DNA of 11,857 nucleotides from Burkholderiales bacterium (lineage in GTDB: Bacteria > Pseudomonadota > Gammaproteobacteria > Burkholderiales > Burkholderiaceae_C): assembly GCA_947458895.1 (NCBI GenBank), contig CANHBY010000009.1, forward strand, positions 1 through 11,857, read 5' to 3'. Each line of letters starts with the position of its first letter. Position 1 is the stretch's first letter. This document shows, one piece after another, positions 1 to 11,857 of the stretch. Both the position numbers and the translations under genes were made by a program. The notes below the pieces were generated by a model. The model was not told the DNA's origin, made no database searches, and saw only the letters and a program-made list of their open reading frames with translations.

Positions 1-1468
1 GAGGCCGGCCGGCCACGCCTGAGCGAGCCAATGCTGTGTAGGCGCCAACCAGTTCCTCCAGGGTGGTGCCGGCACCGCCGAGGATCAAGCTGAGGTTCGG
101 TGTGGCGCCTTGCTGCATGCGCAACTTCAGGCCGGCATTGCGTAACAGGGCTGTGAAGCGCTCGGGGCCAAGGCGGTCCAGCAGGTCGACGGCCGGCACG
201 TTCAGCGAGCGTTGCAGTGCCTCACTCAAACTGACCGGGCCCGAGAAGGCCGCCTGAAAATTCCCGGGCGCGTAGCCCCCAAAGTTTTGAGGTGCGTCGA
301 TCAACAAACTCTCAGAGTGAACCAACCCCTCGTCCAGCGCCATCGCATACAAGAAAGGTTTGAGGGTAGAGCCTGGCGAGCGCACGGCCCGCACCATGTC
401 GACATGGGCCGATCGGGCGGAATCCTGGAAGTCGGCAGAGCCGGCGTAACCACGCACGGCCAAGGTGTCGTTCTCTACCACCAGGGCGGCGATGGAAACC
501 TGATCAGGAAGGCTGGGCAAGCGGTCGAGCAGGATCTGCTCGATTCGAATTTGAACGGCTGGCTCCAGGGTGGAGTGAACCTGACTCACCGTGTTCTGAC
601 CGGACTTGAGCTGCTCGGTGCGCAGTCGCTCGGCTGCCAGGGGGGCCAGCCAGCGCGCACGCAGGGGCGGTGCAAACACGCGCTCCATGAGCGCCTCAGC
701 CACCGTGTCAGCAGGCCAAACACCGAGAGACTGCATGCGATTCAAGACCTTGTCGCGTGCGGCTTGCGCTCGGCCGCTGGCACGGTCGGGCCGCAGGCGT
801 GAGGGGGTTTGAGGCAAGGCCACCAGCAAGGCGGCCTCGGCATGGCTGAGGTCTCGCGCCGACTTGCCAAGGTAAGCGCGGCTGGCCATTTCAACCCCCT
901 CGACCTGGCCGCCCATGGGAGCACGGTTGAGGTAGAGCGTGAGGATCTCGTCTTTGCTCAAGTGCCATTCCAATTGAAGGGCGCGAGCCATTTGTTTGAG
1001 CTTGACGCCCACACTTCGGGAGTTCTTGGCGGGCTGCAAAATACGCGCCACCTGCATGGTGAGCGTGGAGCCCCCTGACACGATGTGCCCCTGCACACCC
1101 CACTGCCAGGCCGCGCGCCACAGCGCGACTGGGTTGATGCCCACATGCCAACGAAACCAGCGGTCTTCATAGGCCTGCAGGGCCTGCACATAAAGGGGCG
1201 AGACAGCCTCTAGGGTGGTCGGCTGGCGCAGGGCGCCATCCGTGCTGGGCCAACTGCGCAAAGGGGTGCCATCTTCGGCCAGCACCACCAAAGTGCCCGG
1301 GCTGGTGGAGCCCGTGAAAGCCTGCGGTGGTAGCGGAAAGGCGCGGTCCAGAGCCCACGCCAACACCAGCAACGCCGCCAGGCCCATGAAACCGACCCGA
1401 AACGCAAGAGGTGTCCCCCGCACCTTGCGGCGCAGGCGAGCCAGCGGTGGGGACATGAATCGCTTCAT
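1..1468 (-). CDS. pbpC: Penicillin-binding protein 1C, C-terminus beyond window
   Basis: Bifunctional class A penicillin-binding protein that polymerises and cross-links peptidoglycan at the outer face of the inner membrane. The reading frame is open from an ATG at 1468 to the window edge (489 full codons); the family is usually about 770-800 residues, so the end is missing. A basic N-terminus is followed by one membrane segment (about residues 25-40). The glycosyltransferase domain shows the EDRWF motif with the likely catalytic Glu101, then SGGSTLTMQ at 131-139. The transpeptidase domain shows STLK with nucleophile Ser367 and Lys370, and the SLN triad at 421-423. The KTG motif and the PBP1C C-terminal domain would lie outside the window. 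It starts 44 bases after the yfhM stop, so the two are probably co-transcribed. A GGAGGG lies 13 bases before the ATG, a little far; an in-frame GTG at 1498 is an alternative start. Confidence 0.93.
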   Translation of the reverse strand, partial: MKRFMSPPLARLRRKVRGTPLAFRVGFMGLAALLVLAWALDRAFPLPPQAFTGSTSPGTLVVLAEDGTPLRSWPSTDGALRQPTTLEAVSPLYVQALQAYEDRWFRWHVGINPVALWRAAWQWGVQGHIVSGGSTLTMQVARILQPAKNSRSVGVKLKQMARALQLEWHLSKDEILTLYLNRAPMGGQVEGVEMASRAYLGKSARDLSHAEAALLVALPQTPSRLRPDRASGRAQAARDKVLNRMQSLGVWPADTVAEALMERVFAPPLRARWLAPLAAERLRTEQLKSGQNTVSQVHSTLEPAVQIRIEQILLDRLPSLPDQVSIAALVVENDTLAVRGYAGSADFQDSARSAHVDMVRAVRSPGSTLKPFLYAMALDEGLVHSESLLIDAPQNFGGYAPGNFQAAFSGPVSLSEALQRSLNVPAVDLLDRLGPERFTALLRNAGLKLRMQQGATPNLSLILGGAGTTLEELVGAYTALARSGVAGRP

Positions 1469-1512
1469 GAGGAAACTTATGCCCTCCAGCCCCTGCACCT
1501 GCCTCTGACCGA

Positions 1513-4500
1513 CTACTTCGGATTGACCACGGTGATGTCGCTCTCTGCCTTGCCCACGCCACGCACTTCAGGGCGGTACATGTCTTCAGCAAAGGCGGCC
1601 GGCACCACGAACTTGCCGGGGGTGACCACCCGCAGCACATAGAAAACATCCAGCTTGTGTTCATCGAGTTGAGCGGCTGCGACGAATCGGTCATCACGGA
1701 ACTCGGTGTGCTTGATGCGTTGGTTGCCCATGGCTTGCCCCACGTTGACACCGTCCACATTGAACTCGCTGGCCTGCACCCCCTGGCTGAGGTTGAGATT
1801 TTCGATCTCCATGCCTGCCGGTATGCGGTCCACGATGAGGCCGTCTTTGATGCGCTGTTTGGCGCGAACACGCAAACGCACGACCAGCATCTCACCGGTT
1901 TTGAACTCCCGGCCTGACACCGAGTCACCCTTGGGGGTCCACCAAGTGCGCTCGATCAGGATGCGATCGTCGCGCTGGGGCAGAGGCTTGATCGGATAGC
2001 CCTCCACTGCCACCTCGGCAAACAAGACCTCATGACCATGATTGACCAGCCTGAGGCCGTGCTTCAGATCAGACACCGCGATCATGCGCTGCTGGGCCGT
2101 GTCACCGGCCAGTTTCTCGGTCTTGCCGGCGTGCTGCAATTCAGCCTGCCAGGACTGATCAGCACTGACGCCAGCGGCACGCGCAGCAAGGAACAATGCC
2201 AGGCGTTCCTGAGTGGAGAAATAGCTGCGCTTGTCGAAGTCATCACTCAAATCCAGAAGCAGGTTTTCACGCCGTGCATGGCTGAGCTTGAAACGGTGCA
2301 AGAGCGCATAGGCCATGGCGTGGTCGCGCACCCTGGAGCCATAGTCACCCAACCACTCGCCATATTCCGAGAGCCCGGCGCCCAGGCCGTAGCCAAGCTG
2401 CATGGCGTCGTCGAGCGCCACCTTGGCACGGGCCTCATCACCCATGAGCTTGAGGGCCAGGCTCAGGTGCACCAGCACCAAAGGCGAGCGCGCATTGGCA
2501 CGGTGCTCATCAAAGAGTGAGCGCAAGGTGGCCAAGGGCGCTTTTTGCTCACGCGCCAAAATGAAGCCCGCGTGGGCCGCATCGGCCAATCGCTGATGGG
2601 CCAGGCGCAGTGACTCCACATCACGGTAGTCGGTGATGCGGCCCTGTGCATCGCGGCGAATGTCTTTCGGGGGCTTCATCTGCTGGCCCGGGGCTCGCTG
2701 AAACTGCTCCAGCAGCGAGGCCACGGCGCGTTGGTGCATGCTCTCTGGCACAGCGAAGCCGGCCTCGCGGGCGTCTTGCAAGAAGCCAGTGACATAGGCA
2801 CTGAGCCAAGCCTCGTAGGAGTTGTTTGCCGCCCACAGACCAAAGCCGCCAGAGCTCTGCTGCAAGCCCGCCAGCCGGCCGAAGGCCACATCCAGCCGCG
2901 CGGCGCGCTCCTCGCGGGTCAGCGGCTTGATCTTGAAAGCCTGCGCGGCTGCTTCATCAATGAAGACCAAGGGGTAGGCGCTGCTGGTGGTTTGCTCCAG
3001 GCAACCATAGGGGTACATCAACAAGCCCCGAACGGCTGAGCTCACATCAATAGGTGGCTTGTTTGACAGCGTCAATCCCACCGTCGATGAGCCTGCCCAC
3101 AAGGCATCGGCCAGGGTGGGGTCCAGCTTCACGCTGCCCTCAGGCTCGAGCCGCACGCGCTTGACTTCACGCACCCGCGGCGTGGCCGGCTGCACCTGAA
3201 GAGCCGCTTCGCGCACGACCTTGAGCTTGCCCGCCGTGACGGTCAGCTTGATCGGCGCCAGGCCTTCGGCATCGGTGGCCTGAGCCTGATAGCGCAACAC
3301 AGTGCGCTGCTTATCGGCCAGTTTCAAAGGAGCGCTCGAGCCTGTGATGCGCAAAGGTGAAGCCGCTTCAATGTTCACCGACACCTGCTGATCGCTGCCC
3401 GAGAGGTTGGTGACATCCAGGGCGATCGTGGCCGTGTCTCCGGGGGTGATGAAGCGAGGCATCGACAGCTCGGCCACCAGCGGGGCGGCCACGGTCATCT
3501 CGGCCTGCGCATTGGCATAACTGTCGGGCGTGCTGGCCACAGCCATCAGGCGCAGGGTGCCATTGAAGTCAGGCAGGCTCAGCGGCACGCTCGCTTCGCC
3601 ATTGGCATCCAGCACCACCGGTCCACTGAACAGGTCGACCAATCGAACCTTGCGCGGCATGCTCTGGGTGTCACGCACGCTGGCGTCGCCCCCGAAACGC
3701 TGCTTGGCCAGGTTGCCCTCCATCGTCTCGATCAGCTTGCCGTACAGATCCAGCAAATCGGCGGCGAAACGATGTTTGCCAAAGAAATAATTGACCGGAT
3801 CAGGCGTGGCGTAGTTGGTGATATTCAAGATGCCCACATCCACCGCCGACACAGTGACCATGGCCTTGCGGTCACCGCCTGCCACAGGCTTGCCAGCGGC
3901 ATCAGAGAGTTTGATCTTGATGGGCACGGTTTGCTCGGGCACGGTCTTGTCTGGCGCGGTCAGCGCGAGCTTGAGCTTGCGATCTTCACGCATCAAAGGC
4001 AGATGCACCAAGCCAAGCGCCCGGGCTGGCGTGACCCGATCACCGGCGCTGCCAGGCCGGAAGGCCACCACACTGATGTAGAGGTCATGGCGCTGCCAAC
4101 TGGGGTCGATGGTGATGTCCAGCGGCGTGCCGTTGGTGCGCACGGCCAGGCGGCGTTGATACAAAACGCGGTCGCCCTCGACCGTGACCAGCGCCTCGCC
4201 ATCATGGGGTGGCGTGATGGTGAGCTTGGCTTTGTCGCCCGGCTTGAAGGGCGCGCCCTCCAGCTTGAGTTGAACGCGGTCGGGGCGGTTGCCCACATCA
4301 TCTTCACCCTGCGCCCCCCAGCCTGCATAAAAGCGATAACGAGAGGTCAGGCCGGTTTCGGGATCTTTGAGTTCCAGACGGTAGCGGCCATAGCGCACCG
4401 GCAGGCTGATCTTGGTGCGCTCCTGGATGGCCAGGCTGCGGGCTTCGGTGAGCTCTTCTTCCAGGTTGTAGCCACTGTTCCAACCGCGGTCTTCGTCATA

Positions 4501-6555
4501 GCGCCAATACCAGCGGCGGTCCTCGCGAACCAAACGCATCTGAAGGTCTTTGACCGGCACCAGCTTGCCGGCGGCATCGACGCGGATCAGCTCGAATTCA
4601 GCCAAGCCGCCCTCCTGGGCCACGTCGCGCTCGAACAGCGGCCGCAAGCCCACCAACACCGGTGCAGGCCACCACATGCGCTCCACCGAGCGAACCACAG
4701 GGCGCCCGCCGGACTCCAGCAAACTGAAGCTGGCCCTGACCTTCATCGGCGAATGAACATCGCCGGTCTCATAAGGCACCTTCACCAAGGCCTTGCCGTC
4801 GTCGCCCAAGGGGCGCTCCTCAATGCTTTGGCGTTCACGAGCGGAGTCGTCTTCCACATCACCAAACAAAAAGCCCGGCCAGGCCTTGGCCACAGGGTTG
4901 CGCAACCGCTCTGTGACCACGAGGCCCAGCAAACGATTGCCAGAGGCCGGAGCGCCATAGAGGTAGTCGCCCTGAACCTTGACCATGAGCTCCTGCTTCT
5001 CGCGCAGCACCGTCTCGGGCGCATCGAGTGCCAGCTTCATGCGCTCAGGCAAAAACTCTTCCACTGAAAAACTCCATTGCGCATCAGGCTTCTTGGCGCC
5101 GGGGTCGGTTTTGGCCTCCAGCAACCAGCGACCCGTGGGCGCGTCGGCAGGCAAGCTCAACACTTGCTGGTAATAGCCCGAACCGGTGGCCTGCGGCCGC
5201 ACCAATTGGGTCTGCACCGGCTCACCATCAGGCTTCTTGAGCACCAGCGTCAAGGGTGCTGCTGCGGCCCCCTCGGCTTGAGGCAAGACCTTGCCATCGG
5301 CATCTCGCGCCAACACCGACACGGTGAACTGCTCGCCAGGGCGGTAGAGGTCTCGGCCGGCATACACAAACAATTTACGATTGCGCGAAGGGTGCCCACC
5401 GATGTCAAACTCAGACAAATCCAAGGCCGGATCGCGCAGCGCCAGCACCGACATCTCTTTGCCACGCCGCGCCAACACCGCACGTGCCTTGGAGGTGTCG
5501 CCGGTGAACACCGCATGCCCATCCTGGTCAGACTGAACCTGCGCGAGGGACTTGCCCGCCGCATCAATCAAGCTCAGCTCCAGGCCCCCAATGGCCGTGC
5601 CTTTTTTGAGCGAGGTCGCAAACACATCGGTCTGGGCGGCATGCCGATGCAAATGAATGCCAATGTCAGTCACGTAAAAATAAGTGACCTGAAAATCCCA
5701 ACCGAAACGACCCGGCTGGTTCATCACTGCCACATAAATACCGGGCTCTTGCAGCTCCTTGATTTTTTCAACCGGCAGGAAGCTCACATTGCGGCGATTC
5801 CGGCGAGCATCGGTCGTGAACCGGCTGGCATAGACGCTGGTGGAGGTCTCTCGCAACTGGTCCAGCTGATAGCCTGACACCATCCCCTTCAAGCGGCGCT
5901 GGCCATTGTCGACGTAATCACCGCCCTCCTCATCATCCATGCCATCCTGTTGGCTGGGGCTGGACATGCGCCCCCCGACCTTCTCCAAAAAGCCGGGCAA
6001 ATCTTTGTCGTTCACGCGTAAAAACTGAACATCCACTTCGGGCGTATTGACCGTGACCACCGGCAGCCCACCGTTTTGCCCAGCCGGCAGCACCACACCC
6101 TTGCTGGCAAAGTAAAACGACTCCGGCATGGCCTCAGTTTTGACGCTGCAACGCTGCGGTGTGGCCAAGGTGGCCGAACCCACCGAAGCGAGCTCGCCAG
6201 ACAACTCAATTTGGTACTCCCGATCAGGGCTGACATAAGGCAGGTAAAGCACTCGAGGGTTGTCACCCAACACCCAGTTGGCCTCCACCGGCTTGGCATC
6301 TTTAGTGCTTTCATTGGCCTTGATCAGCTTGGCCCAGGCCTGCGAACGAGCCAGCGGCTGAGTGAACATGACAGCTACCGCCGGCGCCCCATCAAACAAG
6401 CGAGGCTTGCACTCAGCCAACGCAAAAGCCTGCGGGCTGCCGACCTCCGCATGAGAGGGGCGCTCCATGCTGGGCGAGCCCTTAAAGGCGTACCAACCCC
6501 CAGTTGCAGCCGCCGAAAGTGCCAAAAATACAGCCCACCTGATGCTTTTTTTCAT
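1513..6555 (-). CDS. yfhM: Bacterial alpha-2-macroglobulin, YfhM type with thioester
   Basis: Large periplasmic protease trap: a protease cuts the bait region, the protein collapses around it, and a reactive thioester links to the protease. At 1680 residues it is close to E. coli YfhM (about 1650). Visible parts, in order: an N-terminal hydrophobic segment (about 6-25), macroglobulin-like beta domains, an A2M_N-like domain near 390-490 (YRPGEQ), a bait-like stretch near 930-970, the A2M domain near 965-1005 (LPDFNGTLR), the thioester domain with YGCLEQ (Cys1185, Gln1188) and a C-terminal bMG10-like domain with TWWTPKG. E. coli YfhM is a lipoprotein, but no lipobox cysteine follows the hydrophobic segment here, so it may be anchored by that segment or released. 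The ATG at 6555 has only a weak ribosome site. It is followed by pbpC, the usual partner. Codons for residues near 259-273 are partly duplicated upstream of the gene. Confidence 0.95.
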   Translation of the reverse strand: MKKSIRWAVFLALSAAATGGWYAFKGSPSMERPSHAEVGSPQAFALAECKPRLFDGAPAVAVMFTQPLARSQAWAKLIKANESTKDAKPVEANWVLGDNPRVLYLPYVSPDREYQIELSGELASVGSATLATPQRCSVKTEAMPESFYFASKGVVLPAGQNGGLPVVTVNTPEVDVQFLRVNDKDLPGFLEKVGGRMSSPSQQDGMDDEEGGDYVDNGQRRLKGMVSGYQLDQLRETSTSVYASRFTTDARRNRRNVSFLPVEKIKELQEPGIYVAVMNQPGRFGWDFQVTYFYVTDIGIHLHRHAAQTDVFATSLKKGTAIGGLELSLIDAAGKSLAQVQSDQDGHAVFTGDTSKARAVLARRGKEMSVLALRDPALDLSEFDIGGHPSRNRKLFVYAGRDLYRPGEQFTVSVLARDADGKVLPQAEGAAAAPLTLVLKKPDGEPVQTQLVRPQATGSGYYQQVLSLPADAPTGRWLLEAKTDPGAKKPDAQWSFSVEEFLPERMKLALDAPETVLREKQELMVKVQGDYLYGAPASGNRLLGLVVTERLRNPVAKAWPGFLFGDVEDDSARERQSIEERPLGDDGKALVKVPYETGDVHSPMKVRASFSLLESGGRPVVRSVERMWWPAPVLVGLRPLFERDVAQEGGLAEFELIRVDAAGKLVPVKDLQMRLVREDRRWYWRYDEDRGWNSGYNLEEELTEARSLAIQERTKISLPVRYGRYRLELKDPETGLTSRYRFYAGWGAQGEDDVGNRPDRVQLKLEGAPFKPGDKAKLTITPPHDGEALVTVEGDRVLYQRRLAVRTNGTPLDITIDPSWQRHDLYISVVAFRPGSAGDRVTPARALGLVHLPLMREDRKLKLALTAPDKTVPEQTVPIKIKLSDAAGKPVAGGDRKAMVTVSAVDVGILNITNYATPDPVNYFFGKHRFAADLLDLYGKLIETMEGNLAKQRFGGDASVRDTQSMPRKVRLVDLFSGPVVLDANGEASVPLSLPDFNGTLRLMAVASTPDSYANAQAEMTVAAPLVAELSMPRFITPGDTATIALDVTNLSGSDQQVSVNIEAASPLRITGSSAPLKLADKQRTVLRYQAQATDAEGLAPIKLTVTAGKLKVVREAALQVQPATPRVREVKRVRLEPEGSVKLDPTLADALWAGSSTVGLTLSNKPPIDVSSAVRGLLMYPYGCLEQTTSSAYPLVFIDEAAAQAFKIKPLTREERAARLDVAFGRLAGLQQSSGGFGLWAANNSYEAWLSAYVTGFLQDAREAGFAVPESMHQRAVASLLEQFQRAPGQQMKPPKDIRRDAQGRITDYRDVESLRLAHQRLADAAHAGFILAREQKAPLATLRSLFDEHRANARSPLVLVHLSLALKLMGDEARAKVALDDAMQLGYGLGAGLSEYGEWLGDYGSRVRDHAMAYALLHRFKLSHARRENLLLDLSDDFDKRSYFSTQERLALFLAARAAGVSADQSWQAELQHAGKTEKLAGDTAQQRMIAVSDLKHGLRLVNHGHEVLFAEVAVEGYPIKPLPQRDDRILIERTWWTPKGDSVSGREFKTGEMLVVRLRVRAKQRIKDGLIVDRIPAGMEIENLNLSQGVQASEFNVDGVNVGQAMGNQRIKHTEFRDDRFVAAAQLDEHKLDVFYVLRVVTPGKFVVPAAFAEDMYRPEVRGVGKAESDITVVNPK
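5738..5779 (-). repeat. 42-bp segment of yfhM with a near-copy upstream of the gene
   Basis: This part of the yfhM coding region (residues near 259-273, around PVEKIKELQEPG) recurs at 6642-6682 in the same orientation. The alignment has two substitutions and one missing T in a T-run. The similarity stops abruptly on both sides. Confidence 0.9.
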
Positions 6556-10964: not shown

Positions 10965-11468
10965 TCAAAGGGTGATGCCCTGAGCCAAGCTGGCGCTCTG
11001 AGATTGGCCTGGCAACACCACGGGGGATTCTGGCTTCCAGCCCTTTTTGCGGTGTTCCACGATCACATGGGTGTGAATGCCGCCGCGAACATACCAACGC
11101 GCTGTAATGCGCACAAAGCGTGGCCGCGCAGCCTTCACCAGATCATCGAGGATTGTGTTGGTGACTTTCTCGTGAAATGCGCCTTCGTTGCGGTAACTCC
11201 AGAAGTACATCTTGAGACTCTTGAGCTCAATGCAGTATTTGTCGGCAATCACCTCGATGGTGAAGTGAGCGAAATCGGGCTGGCCGGTCAGGGGGCAGTT
11301 ACAGGTGAACTCGGGCACCTGGAACTGGATCACATAGTCACGTTCAGGTGCAGGATTCGGAAAAACATGCAGCTCTTTGCTGGCCACACTGGGCGGCTGG
11401 GTGGGGGCGACACGCTGAGCCGGAGCGGTCTTGGAGGCAGATTGAGGCTTCGATGCGGAATTGGCCAT
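10965..11468 (-). CDS. queF: NADPH-dependent 7-cyano-7-deazaguanine reductase, type I
   Basis: Reduces the nitrile of preQ0 to preQ1 with NADPH, a late step before insertion of the modified base into tRNA on the way to queuosine. With the ATG at 11468 it has 167 residues, close to the type I (single-domain) QueF length. Visible motifs are the catalytic Cys58 in [14 protein letters not shown] with Asp65, the QueF signature [10 protein letters not shown] (81-90), and FHE (98-100), whose His and Glu bind the substrate base. The first 30 residues are low-complexity (Ala, Ser, Pro, Gln). An upstream in-frame GTG at 11534 would add 22 residues unlike the family, so I prefer 11468, though no clear ribosome site precedes it. 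It is first in the minus-strand run. Lysine and queuosine synthesis have no known functional link, so the placement looks positional. Confidence 0.94.
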
Positions 11469-11622
11469 GGTCAACAAACAGTAAGGGCAGGTTTGCAAAA
11501 ATGCTGCGCTGCATAAAAAGGCCGGGTTGGGCACGTATGCGCAGGGGCAGAATGTTATTATCCGTCTCTTAGCGACACCGTTTTCAGATTCATTTTTTCC
11601 AAATAAATCAAAGACTTACGGA

Positions 11623-11789
11623 TTAGGGTCTGTTCGGAAAGTCGTTGTCGGGCAGAAAATGGTCAATCAGAGTGAGCTGCAAGGCGCGAAGCACAGCAAT
11701 ACCAGCAGGTATTGCGAGCATTTGCAAAGCTGCAGATCTCTTCAAGAGACCGTTTTATGGCTGGCGAGAACTTTCCAAACAGGCCCTAA
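11623..11789. mobile_element. Foldback MITE-like element with 20-bp terminal inverted repeats
   Basis: The ends TTAGGGTCTGTTCGGAAAGT (11623-11642) and ACTTTCCAAACAGGCCCTAA (11770-11789) are inverted repeats matching at 18 of 20 positions. The two halves remain partly complementary inward (by eye, 14 of the next 22 and 10 of the next 17 positions). They meet in a perfect 8-bp hairpin, GCAATACC AGCA GGTATTGC (11696-11715), centred at 11705.5; the element midpoint is 11706. There is no transposase. TA beside each GGG/CCC end could be a TA target duplication (IS630-like), or TTA/TAA a diverged TNA duplication (as in some IS5-family groups). The parent transposon is not identified. Confidence 0.72.
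11696..11715. repeat. Central perfect hairpin of the foldback element
   Basis: An 8-bp perfect inverted repeat, GCAATACC and GGTATTGC, around an AGCA loop, at the exact centre of the 167-bp element. Either strand can form it. Confidence 0.85.
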
Positions 11790-11835
11790 TGAGCTGGGTG
11801 TCTTCCTTTCTTGATGTGTTAATCGCCCTTCGCCC

Positions 11836-11857
11836 ATGCGTCTGAACTCCATCAAGC
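11836..11857 (+). CDS. smc: Probable start of chromosome-segregation ATPase SMC (partial)
   Basis: Only seven codons are visible: ATG at 11836 reading MRLNSIK, then the window ends. Betaproteobacterial SMC proteins typically begin with MRL(T/N)SIKL(A/S)GFKSF, and smc lies beside the dapC region in several Burkholderiales as I recall. Both the peptide and the context fit. SMC organises and separates the chromosome as a long coiled-coil ATPase. No purine-rich ribosome site is evident upstream. With so few residues this is a strong guess, not proof. Confidence 0.6.

Follow-up and report, generated by a model that had tools for sequence, protein, structure and literature searches.

MITEs of one IS usually share their ends and vary inside. 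The Correia/NEMIS elements of Neisseria are dispersed intergenic palindromic MITEs that become part of transcripts; they have a TA duplication and different ends, and are likened to the element described here by description only. For IS5, the usual duplication is YTAR, as given in the available part of PMC10359306. REP/BIME repeats with RAYT transposases (PMC3733652, PMC2817692) are conserved imperfect hairpins that sometimes occur as inverted twins. The BRE of Bordetella measures about 90 bp, with conserved partial copies that span 40–60 bp; it occurs in Alcaligenaceae and Comamonadaceae and is dispersed, mostly intergenic and not co-oriented with replication (Hot et al. 2011, PMC3110155, section 14).

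The elements considered here carry a common hairpin core. Like IS5-group MITEs (NCBIfam NF033581), they are short and geneless and have inverted ends; in contrast to them, the structured core is common to subfamilies with differing ends, and the ends of the element under study, GGYCTGTTCGGAAAG, had no parent among the searches made. Conserved imperfect hairpins and occasional inverted twins are shared with REP/BIME, from which the core elements differ by 4-bp target duplications, the lack of a GTAG/CGTC tag and the lack of a clear strand bias. With BRE, compared by description only, they share overlapping hosts and a conserved part of similar length, whereas BRE is often tandem and inverted ends or target duplications are not reported for it in section 14 of PMC3110155.

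A Palindromic Element between queF and Presumed smc

The window analyzed is a stretch of 11,857 nt, and all coordinates are positions in it on the forward strand. The palindrome lies near its right end. Elsewhere in the window, a frame of 1680 aa (1513–6555, minus strand) looks alpha-2-macroglobulin-type by reading only and adjoins a penicillin-binding-protein-like frame (2–1498, minus strand). The parts of the element are as follows.

11623–11789, no strand: entire palindromic element with the flanking tetranucleotides TTAG and CTAA (repeat search, fold, copies, ends scan)
11623–11626, no strand: left flank TTAG, a possible decayed target duplication that shares only TA with the right flank (4-bp duplications of a related subfamily)
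11627–11643, plus strand: left terminal inverted repeat GGTCTGTTCGGAAAGTC (copies, end consensus)
11675–11735, plus strand: conserved hairpin core (profile search with model R1, see below; 81.3 bits, E 1.5e-20, a score obtained by construction, as this copy is in the training set of R1)
11696–11715, plus strand: central 8-bp stem with 4-nt loop, the variable tip of the core (sequence, fold)
11769–11785, minus strand: right terminal inverted repeat GGCCTGTTTGGAAAGTT, given as the minus-strand reading (end consensus)
11786–11789, no strand: right flank CTAA (sequence)

The initial annotation had described this segment as a single imperfect palindrome with ends matching at 18 of 20 positions, and this was confirmed. 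The terminal 20-mers matched in inverted orientation at 18/20, and a scan of the whole window for spans of 60–300 bp found ends of 17/20 or better only here, in three nested registers. Three mononucleotide-shuffled windows contained zero such spans. The single-strand fold of the palindrome reached −41.7 kcal/mol, as compared to −20.9 ± 3.2 kcal/mol for 200 dinucleotide-preserving shuffles (z −6.5), and 0/200 shuffles attained its energy. Complementarity was found to persist inward, as had been claimed, with arms at 11622–11681 and 11731–11790 that are 72% complementary in the inverted-repeat search, and the exact center is indeed a perfect 8-bp hairpin (11696–11703 paired with 11708–11715). 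The length of 167 bp leaves no room for a transposase gene, and the sole listed frame of at least 80 aa that spans the palindrome is an unsupported 95-aa ORF. Assignment to a known RNA family was rejected, since the window had no Rfam 15 match at gathering score; at E ≤ 10, two Rfam matches were obtained in 11560–11850, both at chance level.

Copies in the Home Genome and a Center Shared with Other Genomes

The home genome assembly (1.67 Mb, 299 contigs, 66% complete) was searched with 11615–11795. Among 39 rows, 17 places had E ≤ 1e-20, the query included, so that the check for multiple copies was positive. Thirteen places were essentially full length, with L008 lacking 18 bases at its contig end, and four were partial: L014–L016 lie at contig edges and L017 diverges mid-element. 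The full-length copies, query excepted, were 79–91% identical. L003 and L015 have 250 bp of left flank in common at 97% and may represent one site assembled twice; the flank common to L007 and L014 is only about 109 bp long and is a second repeat hosting both.

Some copies showed additional features. In L010 and L013, 21 extra bp correspond to a partial duplication of the core hairpin. L002, L007, L008, L014 and L016 are nested within a second palindromic repeat (CTAGTGTCGTGTCAGGGCTGAAATG...), the copies L004 and L012 adjoin its start, and at L078 only the right end is present in it.

When 60 genomes from the home genome, its family and its order were searched, 8 had matches, including the home genome. 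In the seven others, only the central bases 44–116 of the 167 aligned: the center was conserved and the arms were different. Alignment of 14 centers yielded an imperfect, asymmetric hairpin of 61 nt, and the search model R1 was built from this alignment.

An Empty Site in Relatives and the smc Leader

The neighborhood of the element comprises the following features.

10968–11468, minus strand: queF, divergent neighbor that begins with ATG here or possibly with GTG at 11534 (ORF list, family search)
11553–11561, plus strand: promoter-like TGTTATTAT, equivalent of TG[GCT]TAT[CT]AT (upstream of smc in 27/27 relatives)
11606–11618, plus strand: leader motif AATCAAAGACTTA; the TTAG of the element begins 4 bases later (conserved in 23/27 relatives)
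11836–11857, plus strand: presumed smc, beginning only, cut by the contig end (sequence, synteny)

The gene at the window edge is presumed to be smc from its first residues and from synteny with 27 relatives. With this presumed ATG at 11836, the distance of 46 bases from the right end of the element to the start codon holds as first noted. QueF was detected in 112/120 family genomes, in many by a weak match to a longer frame only. Thirty loci were fetched, one being the window itself; smc was recognized beside queF in 27 of the other 29, and L362 and L366, which gave no smc match, were excluded from the gap comparison.

The queF-smc gap was measurable in 27 relatives, and each of them lacked the element. 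None of these gaps contained an R1 match at E ≤ 1 (weak matches sit elsewhere in the loci) or an inverted pair of 20-mers at 17/20 or better. A loose regular expression of the core matched in 14/29 fetched queF relatives, once near the smc start of L370, with zero matches inside the relatives' gaps. The distance between a fixed motif of QueF and the start of smc was 527 in the window, 360 without the element, and 243–423 (median 330) in the 27 relatives, so that the gap minus the element agrees with theirs. The insertion is hence specific to the lineage of the window among the genomes compared, all of which belong to other genera; the relatives' gaps are too diverged to show the exact pre-insertion bases.

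TG[GCT]TAT[CT]AT stands 67–137 bases 5' of smc in 27/27 relatives, and AATCAAN3NTWR follows it on the 3' side in 23/27. Since both the promoter-like site and the leader motif precede the element, it most likely sits within the presumed 5' leader of smc, downstream of the conserved promoter-like site. As to the earlier suggestion that the element may carry the smc promoter, it probably does not, judging by sequence conservation, as the conserved promoter-like site lies upstream. In many relatives, a GC-rich terminator-like hairpin with a T-run was seen by eye between the promoter-like site and AATCAAN3NTWR. The conserved smc gap (window 11540–11622 and 27 relatives) could possibly represent an attenuated smc leader.

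This position raises the question of whether the palindrome is a permanent regulatory feature of smc, such as an attenuator, terminator or barrier, which is palindromic by chance and was retained for its function. Its place in the presumed leader, 46 bases 5' of the start codon, would suit such a role, and the terminator-like hairpins with T's seen by eye in relatives' leaders indicate that a structured leader is normal. However, the same sequence occurs at other places of the home genome and is absent here in 27/27 relatives. Instead of a single copy and a palindrome conserved at the locus, 17 places and 27 empty gaps were found. A fixed regulatory palindrome is therefore regarded as highly improbable and was rejected on account of the copies elsewhere and the empty sites. 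The same two results support the initial claim of a non-autonomous mobile element. The element is short, has no transposase of its own, has inverted ends and dispersed copies, and its site is empty in relatives; it thus corresponds to a MITE in the main points, the exceptions being that its duplication is not clear and that no parent was found.

Distribution of the Hairpin Core

R1 found 68 matches in the home genome. Genomes with R1 matches numbered 98/150 in the family sample, 77/250 in the order sample, 73/321 in the class sample and 40/349 in the phylum sample; the samples overlap, each includes the home genome, and copy numbers per genome are lower bounds. Outside the class, matches in the phylum sample came from families f238, f241, f250, f253 and f261, with most from f241. 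Scores outside the order were lower among the matches listed, mostly 30–50 bits with few above. A degenerate core pattern matched named genomes in at least 120 stretches, from genera including Acidovorax, Variovorax, Comamonas, Ramlibacter, Polaromonas, Piscinibacter and Castellaniella, the last being a relative of Bordetella. Few core elements were matched in plasmid records (3 and 6 records). The degenerate pattern, a strict one, had no exact match in viral_contigs, and an element of genome G171 had no match in 50,697 phage records; a phage origin was rejected on these grounds.

A description of the core was not found in the open-licence literature among the matches listed. The core elements are regarded as a MITE variant with a possible earlier partial sighting as BRE, which may be the same core as R1, compared by description and not by sequence; six core words are absent from the main text of PMC3110155, where the BRE sequences are in a figure and the supplement.

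Covariation of the Core and Its Gene Context

Covariation was analyzed in 75 R1 matches from 62 loci (68 distinct rows). In this set, 92.3% of the cells were paired, both-sided changes occurred in 19/22 pairs, and the covariation score of the core was 0.448, compared to 0.135 for shuffles and at most 0.065 for slid versions; these counts come from an alignment made to fit the model and are inflated by kinship among the sequences. Several unpaired columns were nearly invariant (A9 67, A57 67, A66 67, A67 66 and C68 67 of 68), others only moderately conserved (A8 58, C23 59, A25 61, G56 55 and A60 48 of 68). Some paired columns were equally fixed (G11 and G69, 68/68); this and the moderate conservation of the other unpaired columns count against the preferred explanation. 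Since pairs covary while several unpaired bases stay fixed, recognition of a folded form is favored, and the best reading is that the core stems would be kept by selection on the folded strand. GT/TG cells exceeded AC/CA cells in paired columns by 36 to 16, a count that depends partly on the search model and gives a weak hint that the modeled strand may be the folding strand. Integron attC sites have RYYYAAC and GTTRRRY boxes at the hairpin base; these were not seen in the core column counts, which read GCAAGGCGC on the 5' side and GCAACGCC on the 3' side.

The gene context was determined for 120 named loci that contain the core in exact form. Sixty cores lay between two called genes, 15 in ORFs and 45 at edges. 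The 60 intergenic cores comprised 31 between convergent, 12 between divergent and 17 between tandem genes, and the tandem cores pointed along transcription in 6 cases and against it in 11; genes were called simply as the longest ORFs and several of the loci belong to one genome, so that these orientation counts are rough. Relative to local GC skew, core strands were distributed 50 to 63 in 113 loci, without a clear bias. For the fixed smc structure discussed above, the frequent convergent position (31/60) is a favorable point and the mixed orientation in tandem pairs an unfavorable one.

The core could possibly have an RNA function instead. In its strongest form, this reading takes the core as an element that acts mainly as RNA, either a small RNA or a processed leader, and that is perhaps the BRE of Bordetella, with mobility being secondary. 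It would agree with the occurrence of the core in Castellaniella and with the GT/TG excess, which slightly favors the modeled strand, and BRE itself was found through transcribed small RNAs (PMC3110155). On the other hand, that excess depends in part on the search model, and the 17 tandem cases (6 and 11) reveal no clear orientation to genes. Moreover, BRE is often tandem and VNTR-like, and section 14 of PMC3110155 reports neither palindromic arms nor target duplications. A primarily RNA-based nature of the core was hence judged unlikely, and selection on the folded strand of a mobile element was retained as the preferred reading.

Different Arms and Ends on a Common Core

In 20 chosen representatives, core identity averaged 0.87, a high value because the representatives were selected by the core. 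Left-arm identity averaged 0.55 as compared to 0.49 for shuffled arms, and the highest pair reached 0.98, which reflects close kinship among a few of the representatives. Within each element, the arms were palindromic (0.77). The elements of G171/G025 and L218 have inner arm sequence in common and different outer ends, as read from the alignment.

At least four end types were found on the core in the home genome: the window type, CTAGTGCAGTG, the twins with CTAGGGCCTGTTAACACTAAAG, and CTAGAGCGTGTCATCAATC. The CTAGGGCCTGTTAACACTAAAG twins contain two oppositely oriented cores each. Twin elements of this kind are about 270 bp long, with cores 107–109 bp apart from start to start and joined by a CCCGAAGGG-like mini-hairpin; they were seen at L110, L111, L114 and L115 in the home genome and at L332, L336, L340 and L344. 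The ends scan covered 80 named loci (L207–L286), 13 of which had too little flank. Many scanned loci had CTAG, TTAG or TCAGA-type boundaries and a near-constant arm length of about 55–62, with the automatic boundary overrunning in a sizeable share of them.

From these data, it may be proposed that the core of about 61 nt is the constant mobile unit, that its ends are exchangeable and come from different transposase families, and that selection for the fold maintains it in genomes of its own class and outside it. This would demand that some factor of the host or the element reads those bases of the folded strand that are unpaired and fixed. The proposal is regarded as tentative and on the doubtful side.

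Target Duplications and Candidate Transposases

The subfamily with GGCAACGCTGAAYAAG ends (G171, G143 and G025) was better preserved. It was represented by 50 loci, 20 of the G025 loci having been picked from listed perfect end pairs; both ends were present in 42 loci (8, 4 and 30, respectively), and the remaining eight are G171 contig-edge pieces. The flanking 4-mers were identical in 31/42, with one mismatch in 9 and two mismatches in 2. Each other offset of the left 4-mer (−12 to 12) gave at most one identity, and there were zero 5-mer matches. The duplications are YTAR-like, as for IS5, and the elements are 161 or 162 bp long except for one copy of 81 bp. This copy, L396 (G025 C1:390544-391624), has both ends and an exact CTAA duplication and no core. 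Because a core-less copy has an exact duplication, insertion may not require the core, provided that L396 did not lose it afterwards. The ends were counted 100 times in G171 and 264 times in G025 (control 0), which suggests roughly 50 and 130 copies, respectively. Among those of the 364 places that were listed, this end search showed no plus-then-minus pair at IS distance.

An IS5-group element with similar ends was found on the Burkholderia cepacia plasmid pYS1. The plasmid carries an IS5-group transposase gene (NF033581, 318.7 bits, cut-off 140), and the ends of its IS5-group element, GGAAACRCTGATYWAA, resemble the G171/G025 ends; exact CTAG and TTAG duplications were present at the two places examined. 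The G171/G025/G143 subfamily is thus like IS5-group MITEs in its 4-bp YTAR-like duplications and IS5-group-like ends. Related end motifs were found in E. coli IS5 and in a Xanthomonas IS1646-family element, with no exact 4-bp duplication identified by script. The ends of the window element gave no clear match to the pYS1 IS5-group ends, and many core elements have CTAG-bounded ends unlike IS5, a point against the preferred explanation.

For the window-type elements, the duplications were less clear. In the 12 copies complete at both ends, the flanking 4-mers were identical in 3, and differed by one base in 3, by two in 3 and by three in 3. TA stood on both sides in 6/12, including the window copy with TTAG/CTAA. 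In L005, L010, L012 and L013, and likewise L007, the middle dinucleotide differs by one or more bases, with neither TA on both sides nor an exact match, so that only decay would account for it; such poor duplications count against the preferred explanation. The duplication of a single TA, as first expected, differs from the exact 4-bp duplications in 31/42 of the related subfamily; for the window type, the counts would allow a duplication of either TA or 4 bp. An early hypothesis, by which every element would be of IS630 type and duplicate TA, was abandoned for the subfamily with GGCAACG ends on account of its 4-bp duplications. An IS630-type/TA origin is possible for CTAGTG-type ends; there, the flanks are mostly CTAG on both sides, so that TA and CTAG are inseparable.

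The search for a parent IS, recommended at the outset, yielded none with ends like GGGTCTGTTCGGAAAGT in the home genome (66% complete) or in the plasmid searches. The window end consensus with up to three mismatches occurred at 41 places, compared to 4 for the reversed-pattern control, and 29 of the 41 are ends of known copies. For 7 of the other 12, no mate was found within 200–260 bp on each side, with ORFs listed for C177 only. Plasmid searches with the window ends gave only weak, chance-like matches. Considering an assembly of 66% completeness, the missing parent is weak evidence, and some accepted MITEs have no known parent.

Transposase fragments were present in the home genome: an IS5-type fragment on contig C269 (L080:50-577; 135.2, cut-off 275), an IS630-type fragment on contig C296 (L086:2540-3010; 95.2, cut-off 100) and, on C13, a fragment related to the latter (L087:1459-1812). 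The C269 and C296 scores fall below the NCBIfam cut-offs because these are fragments. As two of the three lie near a contig end, the assembly may lack intact copies. A tblastn search of the collected loci with the C296 fragment matched only itself, the C13 fragment and, weakly, L278. The last (L278:2660-2953; 22% identity, E 6e-5) is about 850 bp from a core.

The duplications also bear on a REP/BIME-like nature of the repeat, i.e., movement by a single-strand (HUH/RAYT) transposase that recognizes the hairpin. The asymmetric hairpin that is conserved here, some unpaired bases of which are fixed, and the existence of inverted twin hairpins as in BIMEs would both be compatible with such a system. 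Single-strand transposition, however, is not known to leave a target duplication, whereas exact 4-bp duplications flank 31/42 elements of one subfamily. Furthermore, the strand counts against GC skew (50 to 63 of 113 loci) show no clear bias, and a GTAG/CGTC tag is not among the conserved core columns. Due to the duplications and the lack of a clear strand bias, the REP/HUH reading is disfavored and was assigned only a very small probability.

Proposed Origin and Significance of the Element

Taken as a whole, an old MITE copy that was moved into the queF-smc gap in trans by a DDE transposase is considered a very probable explanation. The MITE would be about 159 bp long (GG...CC), geneless and bounded by inverted ends of about 17 bp, and would have inserted downstream of the likely promoter and upstream of the start codon of smc. 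How it was mobilized is deduced from the better preserved subfamily, the mover of which was most likely an IS5-group transposase, with YTAR as its target and duplications of 4 bp. The window copy would have been moved by a window-type transposase of that class, and core elements with other ends would have been moved in trans by other transposases. The folded core, as single-stranded DNA, cruciform or RNA, would be read by some factor that many hosts possess, and this recognition would help the element to transpose or survive. In the smc leader, the element would be transcribed as a hairpin that may tune smc expression and would not initiate it.

The locus shows that the smc leader is able to accommodate a 167-bp hairpin. 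While MITEs are normally defined by their ends, the constant part here is the middle, and a covarying core across different ends suggests a recognition step, of folded DNA or RNA, beyond the standard needs of a DDE transposase. R1 offers a route to annotating repeats that apparently exist in very large numbers, so far without annotation, in Burkholderiales and other groups.
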